Source of the DNA: Lachnospiraceae bacterium | GTDB taxonomy: Bacteria; Bacillota; Clostridia; Lachnospirales; Lachnospiraceae | NCBI GenBank assembly: GCA_015057375.1 | Contig: SVEM01000002.1 | Coordinates: 62,001 to 126,000 of the forward strand | DNA length: 64,000 nucleotides | Reading direction: 5' to 3' | Shown here: one piece after another, positions 1,393 to 56,340 of the stretch | Layout: every line of letters starts with the position of its first letter | Numbering within the stretch: the stretch's first letter is position 1 | Notes under the pieces: model-generated | Databases searched by the model: none | What the model was told of the DNA's origin: nothing | What the model saw: the letters and a program-made list of their open reading frames with translations, nothing else | Position numbers and translations under genes: made by a program

Positions 1393-2139
1393 CTAAAATT
1401 TTCCTCCGCCCACATTACGGGATGACCCGGATGAACCCGAAGAACTGCTTTCCTTCTTTTGACGATCCACAACACGATAGAGGAAAAAGTCAGTTGAATA
1501 TGTAACCTTCATGCTGCCAGGTTTTGTATATTCCGTTGCCGCAGCTTTTTTCTTTACCGATTTCAACTTACTCCTCATAGAGCCGGTTACAATAAGAGCA
1601 ATCACAAGACCGATAGCAAGGCTGATCAAAAGATTCTTCATGAATTTAAATGGGAAGCCGTTGATTTCACCATCAATCTGATACTCACATTCATCAATAA
1701 ATGTATTAAAAGCGTCTGCATAATAGCCGTCACTAAGAGAAGATACAATGGCATCTCCGATATCCTCAATATCATCCGGACTGATAGCATCTGCGCCTAA
1801 GCCATTGGAGAGAATACGGTAATCGCGTTCTTCCATAGATACAAGCAACAGCACACCGTCACGGGTTTCACCGTATCCGTAATCATTTATATCGTAGTAA
1901 GATTCAACAAATTCATCCGCAGTATAGTCGCCCACGGTTTCAACGGTAGCAATGATAACTTCAACCTTGTATTTTTCGCTTACTTCATCAATACGGCTTT
2001 GCAAACTGCTTTCTTCAGAATCGGTGAGCAGATCTGCAGAATCATATAGTCTTGGCATATCACCTTCTGCAAAAGCGGTAACTGATACAGAAAGGTATAC
2101 AAAGAGCACAAAAATTACTGATAAGAATTTTTTCGTCAT
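1393..2139 (-). CDS. Secreted TPM-domain membrane protein (YdjH-like)
   Basis: The start is placed at MTKKFLSVIF, not at the longer ORF-track start, because a strong GGGAGG SD lies just upstream and the longer form would overlap the previous gene. Order: signal peptide (about 1-25), TPM domain (about 30-150, with typical LLVSMEERDYRI), one membrane helix (about 170-190), and a short cytoplasmic tail ending in a Ser/Gly-rich SRNVGGGKF. TPM proteins are membrane-anchored, with the domain outside the cell; roles proposed for relatives include phosphatase activity, assembly of membrane complexes and membrane stress. It is the last gene of the operon. The B. subtilis YdjH comparison is by architecture, not by a search. 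Confidence 0.8.
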   Translation of the reverse strand: MTKKFLSVIFVLFVYLSVSVTAFAEGDMPRLYDSADLLTDSEESSLQSRIDEVSEKYKVEVIIATVETVGDYTADEFVESYYDINDYGYGETRDGVLLLVSMEERDYRILSNGLGADAISPDDIEDIGDAIVSSLSDGYYADAFNTFIDECEYQIDGEINGFPFKFMKNLLISLAIGLVIALIVTGSMRSKLKSVKKKAAATEYTKPGSMKVTYSTDFFLYRVVDRQKKESSSSGSSGSSRNVGGGKF

Positions 2140-2153
2140 AATCTGCACCTCCC

Positions 2154-3239
2154 TTATAAAAGCCACATAAGATAAGAGATAGCAAACGCAACAGCTCCTA
2201 TTATGCCGGTCAAGCCAAAAAGCCATTTTTTATAAGCTCCCTTATCAAGAGGCAGATCGCCAACGAACTTTCCGGTTTGTCCGTTCATAGCGAATGTGTA
2301 TTTTTTACCGTTCCATGATGTATTAAGAAGCCAAACCGGATAGAGTGCATACTTGGCAACACCATTTTGCAAGCTAATACTGCTCGCTTCAGGAATAACA
2401 GTTACATAGCCCTGAACCGTAGATAAAAAGGCATCTTCAGTACTTTTTTTAATTCTTTCATTTGCTCTGGCAATACTTTGCTCAGAATCCACATCATATT
2501 TATCGGCAAGGAAGCCCGATAGATATGCTGTCTGGAAATCTACTGCACCCGAAAAATCAAATGGTTCGATAGATTCCATCAATGTATCATCCATCTTGGT
2601 TGATCCGTCTACCGGAACTCTCTCAAAACCAATCGTTCCTCCTCTTATTACAGAATAAAAACTGGTTTCAGTGTATCGGTAGCTACTATCGCTCCATGTT
2701 CGCACCCTTGATGCTTTATAACGAATATTAGCATCCGCATCTGCATCAAAAAGCCAGACCGGAACGTAGATTCCTTTGACCTCATCAATATGATTTTGAT
2801 TTGCGAACACCTTAGGAAGAAGACGTTTGCCGCCATAGTGCTTTTTAAGCGCCTCCACGGCTGCTTTCTTATCATATTTAAATGGAATCACATAATCCGG
2901 CTTTAATGCACCCGAAAACTGGCCCATCATAATCAAGGGATTTCCACAGAAAGGACAACTTGTTGCAGCTGTTGTTTCATCTCCTACAATCTCGCCGCCA
3001 CAAGATTTACAGGCATATACACGAAGTCCTTCTGCTTCTCCTTCCTGCCATTCACAACCGGCTGTAGTATCCCAATTCATATTATCTGTTTGCTCATTTT
3101 TTAGCTGGTTATCATAGGATACAAGTGTTTCCATTTCAAACTCAGTGCCGCAATACGGACATTTCATTTTCTGTGAACTACTATCAAATTCAATCGCACC
3201 ATCACAGCATGGACATTTATACTGTTGTAATACCGACAT
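2154..3239 (-). CDS. Zinc-ribbon membrane protein (YdjG-like)
   Basis: 361 residues. Two CxxC/CxxC zinc ribbons sit at the N-terminus: CPCC...CPYC (about 9-31) and CKSC...CPFC (about 78-98). A long beta-rich middle domain includes WLLNTSWNGKKYTFAMNGQT, and a single C-terminal membrane helix (about 335-360) anchors it. Such proteins are often misnamed PriA-like helicase or TFIIB zinc-ribbon in databases; no helicase motif is present. B. subtilis YdjG has a comparable layout and works with the SPFH protein YdjI. SD GGAGATGAGCTG precedes the ATG. It lies 42 bases after the DUF4428 gene and 14 before the TPM gene. Confidence 0.8.
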   Translation of the reverse strand: MSVLQQYKCPCCDGAIEFDSSSQKMKCPYCGTEFEMETLVSYDNQLKNEQTDNMNWDTTAGCEWQEGEAEGLRVYACKSCGGEIVGDETTAATSCPFCGNPLIMMGQFSGALKPDYVIPFKYDKKAAVEALKKHYGGKRLLPKVFANQNHIDEVKGIYVPVWLFDADADANIRYKASRVRTWSDSSYRYTETSFYSVIRGGTIGFERVPVDGSTKMDDTLMESIEPFDFSGAVDFQTAYLSGFLADKYDVDSEQSIARANERIKKSTEDAFLSTVQGYVTVIPEASSISLQNGVAKYALYPVWLLNTSWNGKKYTFAMNGQTGKFVGDLPLDKGAYKKWLFGLTGIIGAVAFAISYLMWLL

Positions 3240-3281
3240 CAGCTCATCTCCTTTACATAAAAGTAAATCGGTTCTTTTGTT

Positions 3282-4109
3282 TTAAAGTTGGGAACCACAA
3301 CTCTGACAGAACTTGCCACCGTCACACGGAGCTCCACAGTTCGGACAGAACTTCGGACCTGACTGTGCTACAGGAGCAGGCTCAGGAGCAACAGGTGCAG
3401 AAGCAAACTGAGGTGCCATTCTGCTACGCTGTACGACCTGTTCAATCTGCTGACACATACCAACATACTTCTGATATCTCTCCTGCTCTAAAGGACTGCC
3501 CACATTCACCGGTCCACTAGAGAAACTCATACCCAAGAAACTACCGGTAGTAGCGCCTCTGGTCTCTATAGTAACTGTCTTGGAATTAATCTGAAAACGG
3601 ATATCATCAAAATAAGGATTGTTAGCAATCTGCATATTTATGTAGAAATCATACTCTGTTTCATATCTCGGAGGGTTATAGCTAATTTCATTACCCTGAC
3701 TGTCCTCTTGCTTTAACTCCGTCTCTTCGGTACGAATATCAGTCGTGCAGGACATCAAATCCTTAAACTCAATAATATCAGGATTTTCATCCATATAACT
3801 ATCCGCATCGGTAACCAAGAAGCGCGAAGGAACTCCATTAACTTCCTCGATATACATTTTATAATAATCACCGATAACCTGACTAACACGGAAATTCGCC
3901 AATTTTTCTTCATTCTTTGCTCTGTAAACTAACTGCTCCTTAATCTGATCTACCGTAGAGTGACGGCGATCATCAAACCAAGGTGACAGCTTTTTTGCGC
4001 ACTCTTTGCAACAATTACCATCCTCTAATTTACGATTTCCTAAAAGGCCTATTTCACCACCACAAATATCACATTCTTTTTTCTCAAATATTTTCCCAAA
4101 AATACCCAT
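3282..4109 (-). CDS. DUF4428-type protein with terminal zinc ribbon
   Basis: 275 residues, no signal peptide. The N-terminus KKECDICGGEIGLLGNRKL plus CCKEC is a treble-clef-like Cys4 site typical of DUF4428. A middle domain (about 60-205) resembles PH-like or short beta domains in these proteins. The last 30 residues form a second ribbon, FCPNCG...FCQSCG, after an Ala/Pro linker. Function is unknown. The spacing of 12 bases to the SPFH gene and 42 to the next zinc-ribbon gene argues for co-expression and possibly one membrane-associated complex held together by the shared ribbons. Confidence 0.75.
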   Translation of the reverse strand: MGIFGKIFEKKECDICGGEIGLLGNRKLEDGNCCKECAKKLSPWFDDRRHSTVDQIKEQLVYRAKNEEKLANFRVSQVIGDYYKMYIEEVNGVPSRFLVTDADSYMDENPDIIEFKDLMSCTTDIRTEETELKQEDSQGNEISYNPPRYETEYDFYINMQIANNPYFDDIRFQINSKTVTIETRGATTGSFLGMSFSSGPVNVGSPLEQERYQKYVGMCQQIEQVVQRSRMAPQFASAPVAPEPAPVAQSGPKFCPNCGAPCDGGKFCQSCGSQL

Positions 4110-4121
4110 TATTTTTCCTCC

Positions 4122-5540
4122 TTAAACTATATCACCATTATCAAAAAGATCTCCACATTCAGGACAGAACTTAGGTGCTTTAGTTGGATCAGCAGGCTGC
4201 CAACCACACTTGTCACACTTATACTGAGGAACACCTGCAGGCTTTTGACCACCACAGTTCTGACAGAATTTACCTTTGTTTACAGTACCACATGAGCAGG
4301 TCCAACCATCCTCGGCAGGTTTCGGACTGCCGCATTCAGGACAGAATTTGCCGGTAGCAGTAGCACCACAAGCACATTTCCAGCCATTTGCCGTCTGAGG
4401 CTCCGGTTTCTTAGCTCCACATTCAGGACAGAATTTGCCGGTAGCAGTAGCACCACAAGCACACTTCCAACCATCCTGTGCCGGTGCCTGTGCAGGAGCA
4501 CTCTGTTGCTGAGTCTGCTGTTGCTGTCCCATATTAAATAAGTTTTGTGCCGCATTGAAGCCGCCACCCATAGCTCCGCCTGCCATACCCATGCCCATAA
4601 ACCCGGTCATGGCACCGGCTGTGTTACCGGCTGCGGTCTCCATTGCATTAGCAGTAGCAGTTGTCATACGACCAGCCATCATCGCAGCATTTGAACCGTA
4701 AGCCACAGAATCTTCCATTTCCTGAATCTTCTTCATATCCTCATCGTTGAGTGTGATAGGATTCAGGGCAATTTTTTCAACAGAAATACCTCGTGATTCC
4801 ACCCACTCGTACTGCAATGCATCATTCATTGCCTTCTTAAGTTCATTTACTTTTGCAGGCAACTGAGCAGGACGAAGCTCCAACTCTGCAAGTGCACCAA
4901 AAGCAGGCTGCAGTGCTGACACGAACTCTGTCTTCATCTGCTCATCAATCTTATCGCGAGTGAAATCCTGCTCTACATTTCCGCAGACTTTGGTATAAAA
5001 CAGCAATGGATTGCTGATGATGTACGAATACATACCGTTACAACGAACATTAACGGTACGGCTGAAACCGATTTTCTTGTTCATAACTTCAAAGATAATA
5101 GGGCTTGGAGTGCCAAATCTATTACCCATAATCTCTTTTGTATTGAAATAATAAACTCTTTGATCCTTTCCTGTATCGCCACCGTAAGCAAAACGCTTGC
5201 CGATAGCTTTAAAGGTATCCTTCAGGCTCTGTCCGAAAGATCCCGCAAAAATAGAAGGCTCAGTTGAGGTATCATAAGTATATTCGCCAGGTTCGGCACA
5301 AACCTCAACTACCTTACCCTGCTCTACGATAATCATACATTGACCATCAGCAACAGCAATTCCCGATCCGTTAGAAATCAAATTGTCGCTTCCCTTAGTA
5401 TTGGAACTGCGACCGGAAATCCTCTTCTGACCCTTGACCACAAGGGTATCCATATCCATTGCCTCACAGTAAAAAAACTCCTTCCACTGATCCGCCAATA
5501 CGCCACCAACGGCGCCAATTCCTGCTTTAATAAGTCCCAT
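4122..5540 (-). CDS. SPFH/Band 7 protein with four C-terminal zinc ribbons (YdjI-like)
   Basis: 472 residues. The SPFH domain occupies about 20-270; the subfamily is often called virion core protein in databases. It is followed by a helical Ala/Met/Gly-rich stretch and a Gln-rich linker (about 335-350), then four ribbons: three with a CxC...FCxxCG pattern and one CDKCGW...FCPECG. Two ribbons are nearly identical and come from an 87-bp in-gene duplication. SPFH proteins scaffold membrane microdomains; B. subtilis YdjI recruits PspA. There is no N-terminal helix, so membrane attachment is probably peripheral or through partners. SD GTAAAGGAG. Confidence 0.85.
   Translation of the reverse strand: MGLIKAGIGAVGGVLADQWKEFFYCEAMDMDTLVVKGQKRISGRSSNTKGSDNLISNGSGIAVADGQCMIIVEQGKVVEVCAEPGEYTYDTSTEPSIFAGSFGQSLKDTFKAIGKRFAYGGDTGKDQRVYYFNTKEIMGNRFGTPSPIIFEVMNKKIGFSRTVNVRCNGMYSYIISNPLLFYTKVCGNVEQDFTRDKIDEQMKTEFVSALQPAFGALAELELRPAQLPAKVNELKKAMNDALQYEWVESRGISVEKIALNPITLNDEDMKKIQEMEDSVAYGSNAAMMAGRMTTATANAMETAAGNTAGAMTGFMGMGMAGGAMGGGFNAAQNLFNMGQQQQTQQQSAPAQAPAQDGWKCACGATATGKFCPECGAKKPEPQTANGWKCACGATATGKFCPECGSPKPAEDGWTCSCGTVNKGKFCQNCGGQKPAGVPQYKCDKCGWQPADPTKAPKFCPECGDLFDNGDIV
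4333..4463 (-). repeat. 87-bp internal duplication encoding two zinc ribbons
   Basis: A 44-base stretch beginning CATTCAGGACAGAATTTGCC occurs at 4333 and again at 4420, exactly 87 bases (29 codons) apart, in the SPFH gene. The perfect identity, including synonymous positions, indicates a recent tandem duplication or ongoing conversion. Confidence 0.9.
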
Positions 5541-5545
5541 AATAA

Positions 5546-5818
5546 TTACTCCTTTACATTAGTTTTTGAATAAGGGTTTTTATTTTCTTTCGGTGGGTCC
5601 TTGACGGAACTACACTCTGCAGCCCATCCCATAATCCACATCCCTGAAAGGATAATCAGGATCCAAAAGGCCAAACCACCAACAAACCACCAAATTGAAA
5701 TATCCAGCCAAATATGAAGTGCCAACAGTATCCATGCGGGAATACTCCACTCCAGATTCAGCAGAAGATTGATAAGTAGGCAGAGAAAAAAACTTCCTCC
5801 TCTGCTGGTATGTCTCAA
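5546..5818 (-). CDS. Small two-helix membrane protein
   Basis: About 90 residues, not recognised. The start is TTG at 5818 (AGAGGAG SD about 12 bases upstream); no in-frame ATG would retain the N-terminal helix. Two strongly hydrophobic stretches (about 10-35 and 40-65, rich in Trp, Leu, Ile) are followed by a charged tail KDPPKENKNPYSK. It sits between the DUF6935-like and SPFH genes, 5 bases before the latter, and could be a membrane anchor for the SPFH protein. The overlapping frame at 5610-5876 lacks such features and is taken as a shadow. Confidence 0.6.
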   Translation of the reverse strand: MRHTSRGGSFFLCLLINLLLNLEWSIPAWILLALHIWLDISIWWFVGGLAFWILIILSGMWIMGWAAECSSVKDPPKENKNPYSKTNVKE

Positions 5819-5866
5819 AATTTATACCAACTCCTCTCTTAACAGAGCAATCTGCTGTACATATTA

Positions 5867-6433
5867 TTATGCCCATGGATCAGCAGACTTTGGCTGGCGA
5901 ATGCTTACCAGCAAAAATTGATCCCACAATAACCAGGTGCCATCCCCCTTCTGTCGCAATACAATTTCACGGGCATTATCCGCACCACCGCTCTTAATGT
6001 GCAGCTTCTTATAACCGTGATTTGCATCTGCATAAGGACCCGCCTCAATTGTCAACTTATATGGCACAGTGGGCGTGTAATCGTTATCCGGGGTTGCACC
6101 TTCAAAGTATGAGAACGGCACATGATGTCCCCCACGGAAACGGTCGTTCAAAAACGAGATGTCCATAGCACTAAGCGGGCGTGGTCCACGAAGCCAATTA
6201 AGCATTTCTGTACCAATATTTCTGTCTGCCGCATATACACACAATGCACAAACCGTCAACGCAGCTGTTTGAAACGGATCTGTCAGTACAGCCTCAGGTA
6301 AAGCCTGCATTTGTTCAAGTGTTTCCGGCAAAGCTGAAAAACTGAAGGTCTGGCTCGACGAATGATTCGCTGATGTCGCAGGAGCTGAACTCTGTGCGGG
6401 GTTATTATTCTTCAAATTGTCAAAAATAGACAT
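5867..6433 (-). CDS. DUF6935-like conserved protein
   Basis: 188 residues starting at ATG 6433 (AGGAGGAG SD, 8-base gap); the ORF-track TTG two codons earlier is less likely. A low-complexity Asn/Ser/Ala N-terminus (1-35) precedes a compact domain with the conserved-looking stretches AALTVCALCVYAADRN, MLNWLRGPRPLS and PDNDYTPTVPY, and an end PKSADPWA. I recall this as the uncharacterised DUF6935 family; the number should be confirmed. No membrane segment is visible and no enzymatic motif is recognised. It lies 61 bases after the helicase gene, in the same operon. Confidence 0.7.
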   Translation of the reverse strand: MSIFDNLKNNNPAQSSAPATSANHSSSQTFSFSALPETLEQMQALPEAVLTDPFQTAALTVCALCVYAADRNIGTEMLNWLRGPRPLSAMDISFLNDRFRGGHHVPFSYFEGATPDNDYTPTVPYKLTIEAGPYADANHGYKKLHIKSGGADNAREIVLRQKGDGTWLLWDQFLLVSIRQPKSADPWA

Positions 6434-6494
6434 AACCAACTCTCCTCCTTTTTCTTATATTTTATATAACCAAAATAAAATTTCCATGATACAG

Positions 6495-8630
6495 CTATTC
6501 TTTTTCAGCAAAACGCTTTTTCTCTTCTTCCACAAGTTTACTAATCCATGCCGATTCAGCAGGCTTTAGAGATTCTTCTCCCACCACCGATTCATCAGCA
6601 AAACTGTCAAATTGCTGTTGTTTATTTTTCAGAAGTTCCAACATGCTTTCGTCAATTGTGTCGTCCGCAAGCAAACGATAAACTAACACATCACGTACCT
6701 GCCCCATTCGGTAAGCACGTGCAATAGCTTGATTTTCAATAGAAGGCTTGATTTGTGGTTCGCAAAAAATGATGACACTGGCACTTTGTATATTAAGCCC
6801 TGCACCACCGGCCTGCACCTGACTGGCCAACACAGCGTCATCCTCCGCTTTGCTGAAAGCATCAACGATTTCCTGTCGCCGCTGGGGCGAAATTTCACCG
6901 GTAATAGGCTCCAGGCAACGGTCTCCCAACAATTCAGTAACCTTTTGCAGCGTGGAACGGAAAAACGAAAATACAATAACCTTCCGTTTCTGTTCTCTTG
7001 CTTGTTCACACAATTCAATCAATCGGGCAGCTTTAGAAGAATTTTTTAAATCATCTACCTGCCAGGATACCTGACGTATTGCCATAAAGTTACCGGATAG
7101 TACTGCTTCCTTGTAATCCTGTCTTTCTTGTTCCCCTAAAGCACACCACTGTTCCTTTTCAATAAGTTCAGGTAATTCTTGTAAAACAGAGTCTCGGGTT
7201 CTACGCAAATATACCGGTGCTAACTGTAATCGGAACTGCTCAGCTGTAGAGAGATACTTTACATCCTCCAACTCCTTTGCAATCTGTGGTTGTAAACAAT
7301 TTACCAAAAAGCACATTTCCTCAACACGGTTTTCTAACGGCGTGCCGGACATAAAGAGAACATATTCGGTTTTATCTAATAATTTCAACAGTGCCTTTGT
7401 GCGCTGCGTATCAGGGTTCTTCACATAGTGGGCTTCATCGGTTATCACCATAGAGATTTTGAATTTTTCAGGCAATGTAAAACGACTGATAGATTCAAAA
7501 GTAGTCACCGCTACTCCTCCGTTTTCACGCCAATGAAGTAACCCTTCTTCGTCATTTCCATGCACTTTGATAGTCTCTAAGTCGCTGAATTTTTGGATTT
7601 CACGACACCAGTTTATTAGTACGCTGGCAGGACACACCACCATAAAGTGACTTTTTCCTTCAGCAGCTAAAGCAACCATAGATGCAATTGCCTGCACCGT
7701 CTTGCCGAGCCCCATCTCATCCCCCAACAAGCATTTTTTCTGATGAACAATGTATTTAGCACCAAAAGTCTGATAGCTACGCAAAGTCGCTTTAAGATGT
7801 TGAAGATCCAGTGTCTGTGCTTCAATCTCGGCTGCCAATTGTGCCGGCAATCCTCCTGCAGTCTCTTGTTTTTCCCAATTCAACCCCAGACTTTCCAACT
7901 CCGTATAGTACATTGGTGCATTGGCAATATAATCAGCCCAATAAATATCGGGAGAAGCATTTTCCATCTCTTCCCATGCTTGCAATCCGCAGCCAAAGTC
8001 TCCGGCTAGTCTTGTGCGGAGCATCTCTACGCCGTTTATGATTTGCTGTTTGGCTATCTGCGATCGAAAAAGCCAGCCAAACCCATTGAGAGCCTTTCTG
8101 GATAATGTCAGTTCCTGCTGTAAAGGTTTATGATGTGCCGTATACAGAGTCTTTCCACGTTCACACAAAGACTTAGCATGAATACGAATATACAACGCCT
8201 TAATCAAATCGTCATCCACTTGTCCGGGATTTTCTGATTGAATGCGTACTCGGATTGTTTCCTTGGTATTTTCCACAATCTGCTTAACCGTATCTAGAAT
8301 CTTACGTACAGATTGATCACCCAATCCATCAATAGCACACAGCTGCTGAAAGTTTTTCTTTGAAAGTTGCCAGATATTCTCAATGCCATTATCACGCAAA
8401 AGTCCCACCCTAAGACCTTGCTTCCCTCGATTGATATGTTCCACATCCATCTGTTCAAGTGCTTTTTGGATGCGATCATCATAAAGTGCTTGGGCAGCCT
8501 GCTGGGCAATCCTACGATGGTTTTTATCAGAATTTTGCATAGTCTGCAGCCCCGCATCAATTCGGATTGCTTCTGTTATCATCGTCTTAACTTCTGCCGA
8601 ACCGGGCCGTAGAATCTTCTCTTTCCCCAC
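6495..8630 (-). CDS. SNF2-family DEAD/DEAH-box ATPase
   Basis: 711 residues. A helix-hairpin-helix-like region (about 72-115) precedes the motor. Motif I GDEMGLGKT lies at about 303-311, motif II DEAH at about 398, SGTPLENR (motif III) at about 430, and the helicase C half ends in QAGGAGLNIQSA and QAIARAYRMGQ (motifs V and VI). SNF2 motors translocate on duplex DNA and remodel bound proteins. It is shorter than RapA or typical phage-defence SNF2 proteins and has no nuclease domain. GTG start with AAAGGAT SD. It is the first gene of the operon with SPFH/TPM/zinc-ribbon proteins, an unusual setting. Confidence 0.88.
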   Translation of the reverse strand: MGKEKILRPGSAEVKTMITEAIRIDAGLQTMQNSDKNHRRIAQQAAQALYDDRIQKALEQMDVEHINRGKQGLRVGLLRDNGIENIWQLSKKNFQQLCAIDGLGDQSVRKILDTVKQIVENTKETIRVRIQSENPGQVDDDLIKALYIRIHAKSLCERGKTLYTAHHKPLQQELTLSRKALNGFGWLFRSQIAKQQIINGVEMLRTRLAGDFGCGLQAWEEMENASPDIYWADYIANAPMYYTELESLGLNWEKQETAGGLPAQLAAEIEAQTLDLQHLKATLRSYQTFGAKYIVHQKKCLLGDEMGLGKTVQAIASMVALAAEGKSHFMVVCPASVLINWCREIQKFSDLETIKVHGNDEEGLLHWRENGGVAVTTFESISRFTLPEKFKISMVITDEAHYVKNPDTQRTKALLKLLDKTEYVLFMSGTPLENRVEEMCFLVNCLQPQIAKELEDVKYLSTAEQFRLQLAPVYLRRTRDSVLQELPELIEKEQWCALGEQERQDYKEAVLSGNFMAIRQVSWQVDDLKNSSKAARLIELCEQAREQKRKVIVFSFFRSTLQKVTELLGDRCLEPITGEISPQRRQEIVDAFSKAEDDAVLASQVQAGGAGLNIQSASVIIFCEPQIKPSIENQAIARAYRMGQVRDVLVYRLLADDTIDESMLELLKNKQQQFDSFADESVVGEESLKPAESAWISKLVEEEKKRFAEKE

Positions 8631-8898
8631 TTTTGTATCCTTTCTGCAATACTATTCGAGTACAATGTTTCTCTTTCGTATAAATTTTACTGTGTATTGG
8701 GTACAACAATTCCAATTTTATGCATAAATTATATTACATAATTATTAAAAATTCTACATAATTTAATAAAACTATTTTTATAATTTCATTGTTTTCTATT
8801 TCTTTCCCGTTGCGTTATATTCCCAACCGGCTCTGGTATCCCTTAACTGCACCACAATAATACATAAAAAAATATGGCATTTAATGCGTATACATAAA
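8631..8898. other. Intergenic AT-rich region between divergent genes
   Basis: No gene is supported here. It should carry promoters for the minus-strand SNF2 operon and the plus-strand 8945 gene. A pair TTGTAC-N17-TTATAC can be read on the minus strand at about 8680-8710, but neither box matches consensus well, so no promoter is called. Confidence 0.5.
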
Positions 8899-8950
8899 TA
8901 TCATTTTACTGCACATCCTACTCACTGAAGGAGTGTGCAGCAAAATGACA
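8899..8950 (+). promoter_or_regulatory. Long hairpin burying the SD and ATG of the 8945 gene
   Basis: Arms 8899-8915 (TATCATTTTACTGCACA) and 8934-8950 are complementary at 15 of 17 positions. Inside the loop TCCT (8916-8919) can pair with AGGA (8929-8932) of the SD. The ATG at 8945-8947 pairs with CAT at 8902-8904. In RNA this would hide both initiation signals; in DNA it could instead be an operator dyad. A T-rich run (TTAATTTTTT) follows just after the stem. Confidence 0.65.
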
Positions 8951-9344: not shown

Positions 9345-11609
9345 CTATTCTGATTCTATTGCCTGTGGCATCGGTGTTTCTGCCTCAGGCTGCCTCGTAA
9401 CTTCCGGCACCGCCGTAGCCGGAACATCTGATGGTTTAGGAGCATCCGTAACCTGTACCTGCGGAACATCCGTAACCTGTGGAACTACATCCGGCACCTG
9501 GACCGGCATATCTGTCGGAGGATATGTCGGATAAGTATTCGAATCAACATCCGGTTGAATAGTCTCCATCGGTTCTTCGGTAGGCTCAGGCGACTCTGTC
9601 GGCTCATAAACCGATGAGTACTCTGACTTCGGAAACTCTTTATCAGGAAGTCCTTCATGTATATTCTGCATAAAAGCCTTCCATATATAAAGCGGATAGG
9701 TATTACCAAGCAGATTACTTATTGATTTCGGCGTATCGCATCCCACCCATATTACCGTTGTATAATAAGGTGTATATCCTGCAAACCATCCGTCCTTCTG
9801 CTCATTTGTCGTGCCTGTTTTTCCTGCACATGACATTCCTGAGAGTGCATGCCCAGCTGCGGTTCCCTTTGTAAGAACTCCCTGCATTACATCGGTAAGG
9901 GCCTTTGCGGTTTCCGCGGTATATACCTCTTTCTCATCAAATATCGTATCATTAAGAATCTTGTTGCCTTCTGAATCGGTAATCGCCATGATACATGTCG
10001 GCTCACGGAATACACCTTCATTTTCAAGTGCCGCATACGCAGAGGCAAGCTCTACCGGACTTACTCCGTTTGTAAGGCCGCCAAGTGACGCCGCAAGAGT
10101 ATAATCTCCCGGCACAAGCTTTGAAAAATTCATGTCGGTAAGATATGAAAGACATTTCTTAGGTGAAATTTCATTAAACAGATTCCACGCTATCGTATTA
10201 ATCGAACGTTCTACCGCTGTTCTTAACGAAACATTTCCCATATATTTGCCATTAGAGTTTTTCGGTCCATCCTTTACAGGCTCATCCTTCATCATACTTA
10301 CCGGCGTATATCCGTTATCAAATGCCGGTCCGTATACAGCAATCGGCTTTATCGCGCTTCCCGGCTGTCTGTAACTCTGATATGCGCGGTTTAATGTGTA
10401 TCCGGTTATCTGAGACTGGCTTCTTCCGCCCACTACGGCAACCACTTTTCCGTTTGCATTGTCAATACATACTCCGGCTCCCTGGAATTCAAACATTCCG
10501 TCTTCGCCTTTTTCCTTATTGTCTGCAAGCTTCTCATTTATAGATGCCTGTAAAAGCTTCTGTTTTTCTCTGTCAATCGAAGTAAATATTCTGTAGCCTT
10601 CTCTGTACATGCTCTGCTGACACTGGGTATACATCTCATTGTAAGCTTCCATATACTCCTCGTCGTCAGATATGTTTACATCATAACGGAACTCAAATCC
10701 GGACTGCTTCATAAGCGCACGGACGGCACAGTGCATAACATAAGTTTCAATATAATTACGCACTTTCTGCTTCGGAACATCGAGAACAATCTCCTCTTCG
10801 CATGCCGCCTTGTATTCCTCAACCGTTATCATTCCCTGACCATGCATCTGCTCAAGAATTCTCTTTTGGCGGGCAAGTGTATTGTCATAATTTTCTATCG
10901 GGTCATATCTTGTCGGACTGTTCGGAATGGAACATACAAATGCGACCTCCGCCAGGCTGAGCTTATTACAGCTCTTACTGAAATATCCTCTGCTTGCCGC
11001 TTCAATTCCATAATATCCGTTTGCATAATAAATATTATTCAGATAAAACTCCATGATTTCATCTTTACTGTATTTCTTTTCAAGCTCAAGTGCGATAAAC
11101 ATCTCTTTTATCTTTCTTGACCATTCTTTTGCATGATTAAGAAAAACGTTTCTGGCAAGCTGCTGTGTTATCGTACTTCCTCCGCGCCTGAGTTCTCCGT
11201 TATTTCTCACCAGCGAAACAACGGCTGCACCTATCGCCTTTATGTCAATTCCGTTATGGGAACGGAACTTCCTGTCTTCTGTTGCAATCATCGCATCAAC
11301 GGCTGCTTTAGGAATCGTATTAATATCCACATAATACATATCCTTCTCGCCTGTAAGTGTGGCAAGCTGCTTGCCGTTTACATCATATACAATTGAAGTT
11401 TCCGACGCACGAAATGTATCCTTTGTCGACTCCGCAACAAGAGTAACGGCATTGTTCTTTGCCTCTGCCAGATTATCCCCGTACTTAACATATAATAATA
11501 ATGTGACAATCAGTGCCAATATAAGAAAAATAAACAGGCTTGTTTTAAGAATAAATCTTCTCTTCTTTTGTTTATTACTAAGACGCTTCTTAGTTTTTTT
11601 CCTTGACAT
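9345..11609 (-). CDS. Class A penicillin-binding protein 1A
   Basis: 754 residues; bifunctional peptidoglycan glycosyltransferase/transpeptidase. Lys-rich cytoplasmic start, membrane helix (about 20-42), GT51 domain (about 85-260) with catalytic ATEDRKF at about 109-115 and GGSTITQQLARN, then a transpeptidase domain with SAIK (Ser418), SIN (about 469) and KTGT (597-600). The tail of about 90 residues is rich in Pro, Thr, Glu and Val and probably spans the wall. ATG start with GAAGGTG SD. It is monocistronic and divergent from the riboswitch-queT unit. Confidence 0.95.
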   Translation of the reverse strand: MSRKKTKKRLSNKQKKRRFILKTSLFIFLILALIVTLLLYVKYGDNLAEAKNNAVTLVAESTKDTFRASETSIVYDVNGKQLATLTGEKDMYYVDINTIPKAAVDAMIATEDRKFRSHNGIDIKAIGAAVVSLVRNNGELRRGGSTITQQLARNVFLNHAKEWSRKIKEMFIALELEKKYSKDEIMEFYLNNIYYANGYYGIEAASRGYFSKSCNKLSLAEVAFVCSIPNSPTRYDPIENYDNTLARQKRILEQMHGQGMITVEEYKAACEEEIVLDVPKQKVRNYIETYVMHCAVRALMKQSGFEFRYDVNISDDEEYMEAYNEMYTQCQQSMYREGYRIFTSIDREKQKLLQASINEKLADNKEKGEDGMFEFQGAGVCIDNANGKVVAVVGGRSQSQITGYTLNRAYQSYRQPGSAIKPIAVYGPAFDNGYTPVSMMKDEPVKDGPKNSNGKYMGNVSLRTAVERSINTIAWNLFNEISPKKCLSYLTDMNFSKLVPGDYTLAASLGGLTNGVSPVELASAYAALENEGVFREPTCIMAITDSEGNKILNDTIFDEKEVYTAETAKALTDVMQGVLTKGTAAGHALSGMSCAGKTGTTNEQKDGWFAGYTPYYTTVIWVGCDTPKSISNLLGNTYPLYIWKAFMQNIHEGLPDKEFPKSEYSSVYEPTESPEPTEEPMETIQPDVDSNTYPTYPPTDMPVQVPDVVPQVTDVPQVQVTDAPKPSDVPATAVPEVTRQPEAETPMPQAIESE

Positions 11610-11750: not shown

Positions 11751-12242
11751 ATGAATACTAAAACAAAATTTATTACACACGCGGCCATTATTGCGGCAAT
11801 TTATGTAATTCCGAATCTTGTTATGACCATTAACCTTACCGGCGGTATAATTCAGTGCAGGGTGGCTGAAGCATTTACAATTCTTCCGATATTTACACCG
11901 GCAGCAGTACCGGGATTATTTGTCGGATGCCTTTTGTCAAATTTGCTTATGGGCGCAGCCTTATATGATGTAATATTCGGAAGCTTAGCGACGCTCCTTG
12001 GTGCCATCGGCACATATGCACTCAGGGATAATCCTTATCTTTCCGTTATCTCGCCTATTACTGCCAATACGATTATTATTCCGTTTATATTAAAATATAC
12101 TTACGGATTCGGAGAAAGTATTCCGTTTATCATGCTTATGATATTTATCGGAGAGGTAATAAGCTGTGGTGTTTTAGGAATTATTTTATACAAAGCCATG
12201 CAAAAATCAGAAAACACATGGTATAGTCTTTTTAAATATTGA
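11751..12242 (+). CDS. queT: Queuosine precursor ECF transporter S-component
   Basis: 163 residues with five or six membrane helices and no soluble domain. TGGIIQCRVAEAFTILPIFTP and LYDVIFGSLATLLGA are characteristic of the QueT family, the substrate-binding subunit that works with the shared ECF module to import preQ1 or preQ0 for tRNA queuosine. The length is normal. The ATG follows the riboswitch-held SD. It is followed after 32 bases by the VanY-type gene, which may be co-transcribed. Confidence 0.9.
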   Translation: MNTKTKFITHAAIIAAIYVIPNLVMTINLTGGIIQCRVAEAFTILPIFTPAAVPGLFVGCLLSNLLMGAALYDVIFGSLATLLGAIGTYALRDNPYLSVISPITANTIIIPFILKYTYGFGESIPFIMLMIFIGEVISCGVLGIILYKAMQKSENTWYSLFKY

Positions 12243-14375: not shown

Positions 14376-14441
14376 ACATCTCCATATTTTGCTACGGGTT
14401 TTGCTTTCGCAAAAATAACGCAAAATATGGAGATATTTTTT
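14376..14441 (+). terminator. Strong intrinsic terminator
   Basis: ATCTCCATATTTTGC (14378-14392) pairs perfectly with GCAAAATATGGAGAT (14420-14434). The loop itself contains a TTTTGC/GCAAAA hairpin, and a run of Ts follows. Confidence 0.92.
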
Positions 14442-44194: not shown

Positions 44195-44209
44195 ATTCTC
44201 CTCCAAAAT

Positions 44210-44242
44210 AAAAGACTACAATTAAAAACATTGTAGTCTTTT
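44210..44242 (-). terminator. Terminator of the first GH43 gene
   Basis: AAAAGACTACAAT (44210-44222) pairs perfectly with ATTGTAGTCTTTT (44230-44242), 7-base loop. On the minus strand the stem is followed by TTTTATTTT. It lies between the GH43 gene and the pth SD, so it also marks the end of the leader for pth. Confidence 0.88.
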
Positions 44243-44264
44243 ACATTTGCAAAGTCAATTATTC

Positions 44265-46318: not shown

Positions 46319-46360
46319 AAAAATACTGCCACTTTACGATATGTCCGCAAAGTGGCAGTA
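46319..46360 (-). terminator. Terminator of the second GH43 gene
   Basis: TACTGCCACTTT (46324-46335) pairs with AAAGTGGCAGTA (46349-46360), followed on the minus strand by TTTTT. It insulates the two paralogues. Confidence 0.88.
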
Positions 46361-52982: not shown

Positions 52983-53028
52983 AACTGTTTTGTAAAAGAT
53001 TTTATAAAATATCTTTTGCAAAACAGTT
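52983..53028 (-). terminator. Probable terminator after the TPR/degenerate-AAA gene
   Basis: AACTGTTTTGTAAAAGAT (52983-53000) and ATCTTTTGCAAAACAGTT (53011-53028) pair at 17 of 18 positions, loop 10. The T-run on the minus strand is moderate (TTATTTAT). It ends the 54443-53034 unit ahead of murA. Confidence 0.7.
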
Positions 53029-55327: not shown

Positions 55328-56269
55328 TTATATTTTGTCGAGAATGGATATACACCAATATCCAAATTCACCTCTGACATCTTTCTTACAGTTCATTGCT
55401 TTAAACACCTCAAATCCAAACATTTTTGCCATAAATTCATCCCTGTTGTGATACACTCCCGGAACTCCAATCATGTAACACGGGTGATCTTTACAACTTG
55501 TTTTCATAAGCATAAGGTGTCTGTAGCTGTAATATCCGTGAAGTAAAAAACTGTTATTTGCAATTACCCACGTATCAATTGGAAGCTGGCCGATATCCTG
55601 CGGTTCAATGCGTATGCACCACTCCATTTCATCATCCTCAAACGGATACATGCGCGGATACATTTGCTTCATTTTTTCGGCAGATTTTATTATCTGCTCC
55701 CGTATACCTTCCGGTTCTTTTATTACAGAAGCTTCAAGCGCTGCTGCCGTCTCTTCCTGTTCATCAACAACCGGCTGTTCATCAAATTGTTTATCTGACA
55801 GTATATCATCTGTCTGTTCCTGTGGTTCCGGCTGCATTTCCGGCTCTTCCTCATGCTCAGCGTCTGCTTCATATTCAGACACATCTGCCTCTTTAAGACC
55901 GTGCACCGTAACAGGGTTGTCATCCCATGCTGACGCATAAAACTTACTGTCACTATGATATATTATTAACCCGTCCATATCATTTAATCCATATATGCTT
56001 TCGGCCACAGAATTTACAGGAAATATATAACTTGCATCACAGGCTCCGTTTTTCTGTTTTATCCGGCCGATACTAAATCCTTTTACCTTATAACCATTTC
56101 TCATGTATAAATACACTTCCATAGGTTCATTTACACTTAAAACATTGATATGTACCGTGATTTTTACCTTCTTATCCCTAATTTCAATTCTTGCATACCC
56201 GATGTTATTTTTCTTTTCTTCCTGTTCATAAGAATATATATACGATATCCATCTCTTATATTCTGACAT
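55328..56269 (-). CDS. DUF6128-like conserved protein
   Basis: 313 residues from MSEYKRWISYIYSYE (ATG 56269, GGGGG SD); the ORF-track start is earlier. The N-terminal beta domain (about 1-110) has VKITVHINVL and VYLYMRNGYK; the middle is acidic and variable (about 115-190); the C-terminal domain (about 195-313) with HGYYSYRHLMLM and GVPGVYHNRDEFMAKMFGF is conserved. I recall this as DUF6128 of Lachnospiraceae; no function is known. Its SD lies in a terminator-like hairpin. Confidence 0.7.
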   Translation of the reverse strand: MSEYKRWISYIYSYEQEEKKNNIGYARIEIRDKKVKITVHINVLSVNEPMEVYLYMRNGYKVKGFSIGRIKQKNGACDASYIFPVNSVAESIYGLNDMDGLIIYHSDSKFYASAWDDNPVTVHGLKEADVSEYEADAEHEEEPEMQPEPQEQTDDILSDKQFDEQPVVDEQEETAAALEASVIKEPEGIREQIIKSAEKMKQMYPRMYPFEDDEMEWCIRIEPQDIGQLPIDTWVIANNSFLLHGYYSYRHLMLMKTSCKDHPCYMIGVPGVYHNRDEFMAKMFGFEVFKAMNCKKDVRGEFGYWCISILDKI

Positions 56270-56274
56270 GACAA

Positions 56275-56309
56275 AACCCCCTTCATACATATAATGTATG
56301 CAGAGGGTT
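56275..56309 (-). promoter_or_regulatory. Hairpin terminating the sigma operon and occluding the next SD
   Basis: On the minus strand AACCCTCTGCATACAT pairs with ATGTATGAAGGGGGTT at 15 of 16 positions (one G-U), loop TAT, followed by TTTTG. The GGGGG arm is the SD of the DUF6128-like gene. So it may act as a terminator for the sigma/anti-sigma unit and as a translational block. Confidence 0.7.
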
Positions 56310-56340
56310 CGTCATATAGAACTTTTTATGGAATTAATAT

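Follow-up and report, generated by a model that had tools for sequence, protein, structure and literature searches.

ROSE, fourU and other RNA thermometers sequester the Shine-Dalgarno (SD) sequence and the AUG in a stem. In the B. subtilis sigG leader, a 5-bp hairpin on the ribosome-binding site (RBS), with a stability of -6.2 kcal/mol, reduces translation two- to four-fold, and translation is nearly blocked when this hairpin is strengthened (PMC5942855). A large read-through hairpin of 20 or more bp, described for sigG in work cited in PMC5942855, cannot form in transcripts made from the gene's own promoter. In B. subtilis cmpA, a strengthened start-codon stem blocked translation (PMC13317604); this sporulation gene is, despite its name, unrelated to PF06541 (ABC_trans_CmpB), a family that has been named as an untested candidate among queuosine-precursor transporters (PMC11130926).

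The leader analysed here lies in a 64-kb window (the whole stretch of DNA under study) of a fragmented, 1.97-Mb assembly of 79 contigs from a gut-dwelling member of the Lachnospiraceae, and precedes a gene that stands alone, divergent from a helicase gene and convergent with a penicillin-binding-protein gene (Table 1). The stops of the two convergent genes are 7 bp apart, and no terminator fits between them. The first-pass annotation had described a near-perfect 17-bp dyad at 8899-8950 that hides both the SD and the ATG of a small membrane protein gene. The gene encodes a PF06541 protein, and the dyad is present where claimed, with 14 of 15 arm positions complementary and a sole mismatch at A8908/C8941; its arms, however, measure 15 rather than 17 bp unless outer A-U pairs are counted. 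The dyad is in exact register with the translation start signals. The start codon pairs with CAT of the 5' arm, as seen both in the sequence and in the RNA fold, and AGGA within the SD pairs with the inner TCCT, leaving G8933 as a bulge.

Table 1. Coordinates of the target leader, its neighbourhood and the DUF6128 leader in the window
Feature	Position	Strand	Remarks
Dyad 5' arm TCATTTTACTGCACA	8901-8915	+	CAU 8902-8904 opposite start codon
Anti-SD UCCU (TCCT in DNA)	8916-8919	+	partner AGGA 8929-8932
Shine-Dalgarno AAGGAG	8928-8933	+	ATG 11 nt downstream
Dyad 3' arm TGTGCAGCAAAATGA	8934-8948	+	includes ATG 8945-8947
Membrane-protein gene, 130 aa	8945-9337	+	PF06541 ABC_trans_CmpB (E 4.1e-11)
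SNF2-type helicase gene	6495-8630	-	divergent, upstream of target gene
Class A penicillin-binding-protein gene	9345-11609	-	convergent, downstream of target gene
Third copy TTAACTGCAC of arm core TTWRCTGCAC	8843-8852	+	possible operator half-site, significance uncertain
Arm core TTWRCTGCAC, other two copies	8905-8914; 8935-8944	+; -	
Possible promoter ATGGCA-19-TATCAT	8874-8904	+	start near 8911; consensus match only
Equally weak candidate promoter	8755-8784	+	start near 8791; consensus match only
14-codon ORF MRIHKYHFTAHPTH followed by stop	8884-8928	+	spans 5' arm; no SD
Promoter-in-hairpin before DUF6128 gene	56258-56322	-	start ATG 56269-56267; separate from target

When folded as RNA, the hairpin has a minimum free energy of -23.6 kcal/mol (z -4.06), a value equalled by none of 200 shuffles. 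In the fold model, the AUG is paired with a probability of 0.999, while mean per-base pairing of the SD is just 0.66, since A8928 and G8933 are partly free. The fold is identical, with SD and AUG closed, for RNAs that start at or before 8902. The claimed occlusion of both signals is therefore well supported by folding, and is likely provided that the transcript contains both arms. A dyad scan of the 64-kb window (arms of 15, no more than one mismatch, loop up to 30) returned six dyads, versus two in 20 whole-window shuffles, and the target dyad is therefore not a chance match. Comparably long dyads exist elsewhere in the genome, and several of these are terminator-like. Other long dyads of the window lie at 14378-14434, 44208-44244, 46324-46360 and 52983-53028; those at 46324 and 44208 resemble minus-strand terminators, and the dyad at 44208-44244 ends immediately before the SD of a peptidyl-tRNA hydrolase gene. 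Among the 55 gene starts of the window, the target leader ranked third in stability and was one of two leaders below -20 kcal/mol that cover both the SD and the start codon, the other being that of a DUF6128 gene. A mobile or repeated element was rejected, as the hairpin has no second copy in its own genome and none in nine other genomes of the genus.

We tentatively favour, at somewhat less than even chances, the reading that the dyad is an mRNA 5' leader hairpin that hides the SD and AUG and keeps translation low. The hairpin would close over both signals, so that ribosomes could load only during transient opening, during transcription before the hairpin has closed, or on RNA whose 5' end lies within the 5' arm. 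The sigG and cmpA hairpin experiments, together with the lack of melting and of an aptamer, lead us to favour constitutive damping, from which transcripts that start within the 5' arm might escape; we do not propose a regulated trigger. The target may be one more leader hairpin of a known type, capping the level of a membrane protein. As with the sigG RBS hairpin, it is a 5' leader hairpin on the RBS that is predicted to damp translation of an otherwise ordinary gene. The sigG hairpin is 5 bp long and was demonstrated by mutation, whereas that of the target is about 18 bp long, with -22 kcal/mol, and takes in the AUG as well.

The first-pass proposal of a translational switch responding to temperature, a ligand or a protein was not supported. 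The target resembles ROSE and fourU in its SD/AUG stem but is predicted to stay closed across any physiological temperature range: in the model the AUG was still 97% paired at 60 C and no melting occurred up to that temperature, which makes a thermometer unlikely. The target region contained no Rfam family, no match near the gathering score and no domain other than the hairpin; no riboswitch aptamer was recognisable, novel aptamers being conceivable. An intrinsic terminator was rejected after a negative terminator scan at the target, with the U-tract missing on both strands. The His-rich ORF that spans the 5' arm was rejected as a leader-peptide attenuator: it lacks an SD, occurs in 17% of shuffles and is not conserved.

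A leader hairpin was also found before PF06541 genes in about 28 Lachnospiraceae genomes. Among leaders of 105 relatives, one group carries the motif AAAACGCTCAxACTAT..ATAGTGAGGGCGTTTTTxxATG directly before the PF06541 start (class I; L015, L018, L022, L023, L026, L031, L050, L054, L066, L074-L079, L081, L085-L089, L093, L096, L099, L100, L104, L107). In most of the loci inspected by eye, the gene lies between miaB and mutS, and gene identities were confirmed for L022. The class I stem is paired in 93.9% of cells, with two-sided changes at three pairs and a covariation score above all 500 shuffles, and its frequent G.U pairs favour RNA over DNA. The class I covariance model (R1) matched in 34 of 397 family genomes, and all 28 strong matches were directly before PF06541 genes; a search of ten relatives' loci returned no Rfam family for this hairpin. 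In class I as in the target, a PF06541 gene follows and the SD belongs to the 3' arm of the hairpin, which in class I is conserved. They differ in that the class I sequence is unrelated, its start codon is outside the stem, a U-run follows and the gene context is different. The U-run makes class I terminator-like, so attenuation is possible there. R1 had no match in the window, up to E 10, or in the target's genome; class I is therefore an analogue, not a homologue, and membership of the target was ruled out. A general habit of PF06541 leaders to hide the SD was also rejected, as leaders outside class I did not differ from control genes in SD pairing.

Taken for the target, damping is favoured by the stability of the hairpin and its register with the SD and AUG, by the indifference of the fold to the exact 5' end, by the absent U-tracts, which disfavour a terminator, and by the recurrence in Lachnospiraceae of SD-burying hairpins before ATG, including those of PF06541 relatives with compensatory changes. 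It is disfavoured by the lack of conservation in one same-genus homologue, by the PF06541 leaders outside the miaB-mutS group, which are no more SD-paired than controls, by the better fold of the minus strand, and by the consideration that a hairpin of about -20 kcal/mol would nearly silence the gene unless opened. We infer that a transcript with both arms is made, that translation is lowered and that the hairpin is under selection.

The target gene is present in two of ten genomes of the genus, and covariation in relatives, the check suggested by the first-pass annotation, could draw on a single, weak comparison. The sole same-genus homologue (L004 in genome G007), 62-63% identical, retains the 3' side GAAGG..GTGCAG..AATG (AGAAGGTGCAGAATG against GAAGGAGTGTGCAGCAAAATG of the target in the SD-side alignment) and lacks the 5' arm. 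Its leader fold (z -0.8) is not beyond shuffles, and an apparent start-codon hairpin was lost on folding a longer leader. Because the 5' arm is missing there, the hairpin looks young or lineage-specific, and the covariation test failed. In the remaining genomes of the genus other genes, often arabinofuranosidase-like as judged by eye, lie beside the penicillin-binding-protein gene. A neutral palindrome with no regulatory role, in which the 5' arm is recent, for example through templated copying of the start region, would account for a homologue that shares the 3' arm and lacks the 5' arm and for the absence of copies in the genus, and the six long dyads of the window show that dyads of this kind can form or be retained here. 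We regard it as a serious, if less likely, alternative; against it, an unselected hairpin over the SD and AUG of an intact gene should do harm or decay, and 14 of 15 pairs are intact.

The arm core TTWRCTGCAC raises the alternative that a repressor binds repeated elements near the promoter and that the dyad is a putative DNA operator. Three exact copies lie within 102 bp, compared with only 26 in the 1.97-Mb genome, at spacings of 62 and 30 bp, near whole helical turns, and the dyad is symmetric in DNA as well. This pattern, however, was picked after the copies had been seen, and neither a paired set nor a regulon was found at other loci of the genome; the 18 bp between the arms are long for a simple operator, to which the inner TCCT/AGGA match contributes nothing, and there is no adjacent regulator gene. 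We regard an operator as doubtful.

A further arrangement was found in the second stable leader of the window, that of the DUF6128 gene, where a hairpin of -32.1 kcal/mol lies over the SD and AUG. Its stem is kept in six other genomes of the genus despite different 5' arms, and the boxes GTTCTA and GCATACAT, the second in the 5' arm, are nearly invariant in these leaders, with promoter-like spacing. The layout (56258-56322 of the window, minus strand, and L212, L213, L230, L214-L219, L223, L225, L226, L228, L231) is GTTCTA, about 17 nt, then CATAnAnT, which lies in the 5' arm; the hairpin covaries and its 3' arm is the SD. When 299 genomes were searched with a model of the DUF6128 leader, this layout recurred upstream of five spoIVA, four spoIID-like and one spoIIID gene, as well as additional DUF6128 or similar genes. 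In the combined alignment, TTCTA and CATAnA are nearly invariant, and the arms covary, with 17 two-sided cells and a score above all 500 shuffles, counts that are biased upward since the matches were selected by a model that rewards pairing. In B. subtilis, spoIVA, spoIID and spoIIID all count among the sigmaE genes, and the CATAnAnT box looks like a sigmaE -10 element. RNA from such a sigmaE-like promoter would begin past the 5' arm and leave the SD free apart from weak residual folds, while read-through RNA would carry the 5' arm and have its SD closed. Because it also precedes spoIVA, spoIID and spoIIID in the family, the motif probably combines a sigmaE promoter with the silencing of read-through RNA, in line with the proposal made for sigG of B. 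subtilis.

The same design, well supported for DUF6128 in the same window, could apply to the target if TATCAT at 8899-8904 were a promoter element in the 5' arm, with the AUG free in RNA from that promoter and longer transcripts silenced. A start near 8911 would remove the outer 5' arm, and AUG pairing in the fold drops from 0.999 to 0.37. Several observations make this explanation very unlikely. The promoter is poor, with a 19-nt spacer and a weak sigmaA-like TATCAT; RNA from 8911 keeps a -11.8 kcal/mol hairpin at its SD; little read-through would need silencing, as the upstream gene is divergent; and the sigmaE-type hairpin model (R2) had no match at the target dyad, which lacks that promoter motif. 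The large sigG hairpin is, like that of the target, long and placed over the RBS, and its design fits the DUF6128/spoIVA/spoIID/spoIIID motif; by contrast, no promoter of this kind is recognisable in the 5' arm of the target, nor does a co-directional gene lie upstream. Least probable is an element of the minus strand, acting for example as an RNA end or leader element in transcripts that run toward the helicase gene or come from the convergent penicillin-binding-protein gene: this strand folds better (-30.6 kcal/mol, z -6.2, versus -23.6), because the A.C mismatch turns into G.U, and the convergent genes leave no room for a terminator, but the stem has no U-tract after it, one transition mismatch favours either strand by chance half the time, so that the fold does not settle the functional strand, and the exact fit to the SD and AUG would have to be fortuitous.

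Two side observations concern the gene neighbourhood. A gene for a QueT queuosine-precursor transporter (11751-12242) lies 2.4 kb from the PF06541 gene, which may be coincidence. The run of minus-strand genes beside the target (1393-8630; TPM domain, zinc-ribbon, DUF4428, SPFH/Band 7, DUF6935 and SNF2-type helicase) appears to be a functional block or an acquired one.

The gain from the target alone is modest, and the wider pattern of SD hairpins matters more. Two covarying SD-hairpin families, both on firmer ground than the target hairpin and not homologous to it, occur in Lachnospiraceae, neither of them in Rfam, which suggests that hiding the SD is a routine means of separating a gene from outside transcription; the sigmaE version predicts which spoIVA, spoIID and spoIIID transcripts can be translated. 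The pattern AAACCTCC-N6-30-GGAGGTTT-N1-10-ATG was found in 23 of 200 family genomes (e.g. L180, L189, L193, L194), versus 2 of 200 for a control with a non-complementary 5' arm; a long ORF is not always downstream of the matches. Speculatively, and with a low probability in our estimate, SD-burying hairpins could be a general insulation device of Lachnospiraceae for genes that are costly if mistimed, sigmaE sporulation genes foremost, with the promoter in the 5' arm and only own-promoter RNA translated; the target would then be a PF06541 transporter variant with its start within the 5' arm. Some matches to the pattern are multicopy and insertion-sequence-like, and one is spoIVA-like. The SD of the insertion-sequence-like genes would be silenced in read-through RNA. 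At another locus (L137, 350-600), the spoVAD SD AGGAGG lies within AAAACCTCCCATACTATC..GATAGTCAGGAGGTTTTTTTATG, a hairpin directly before the start.
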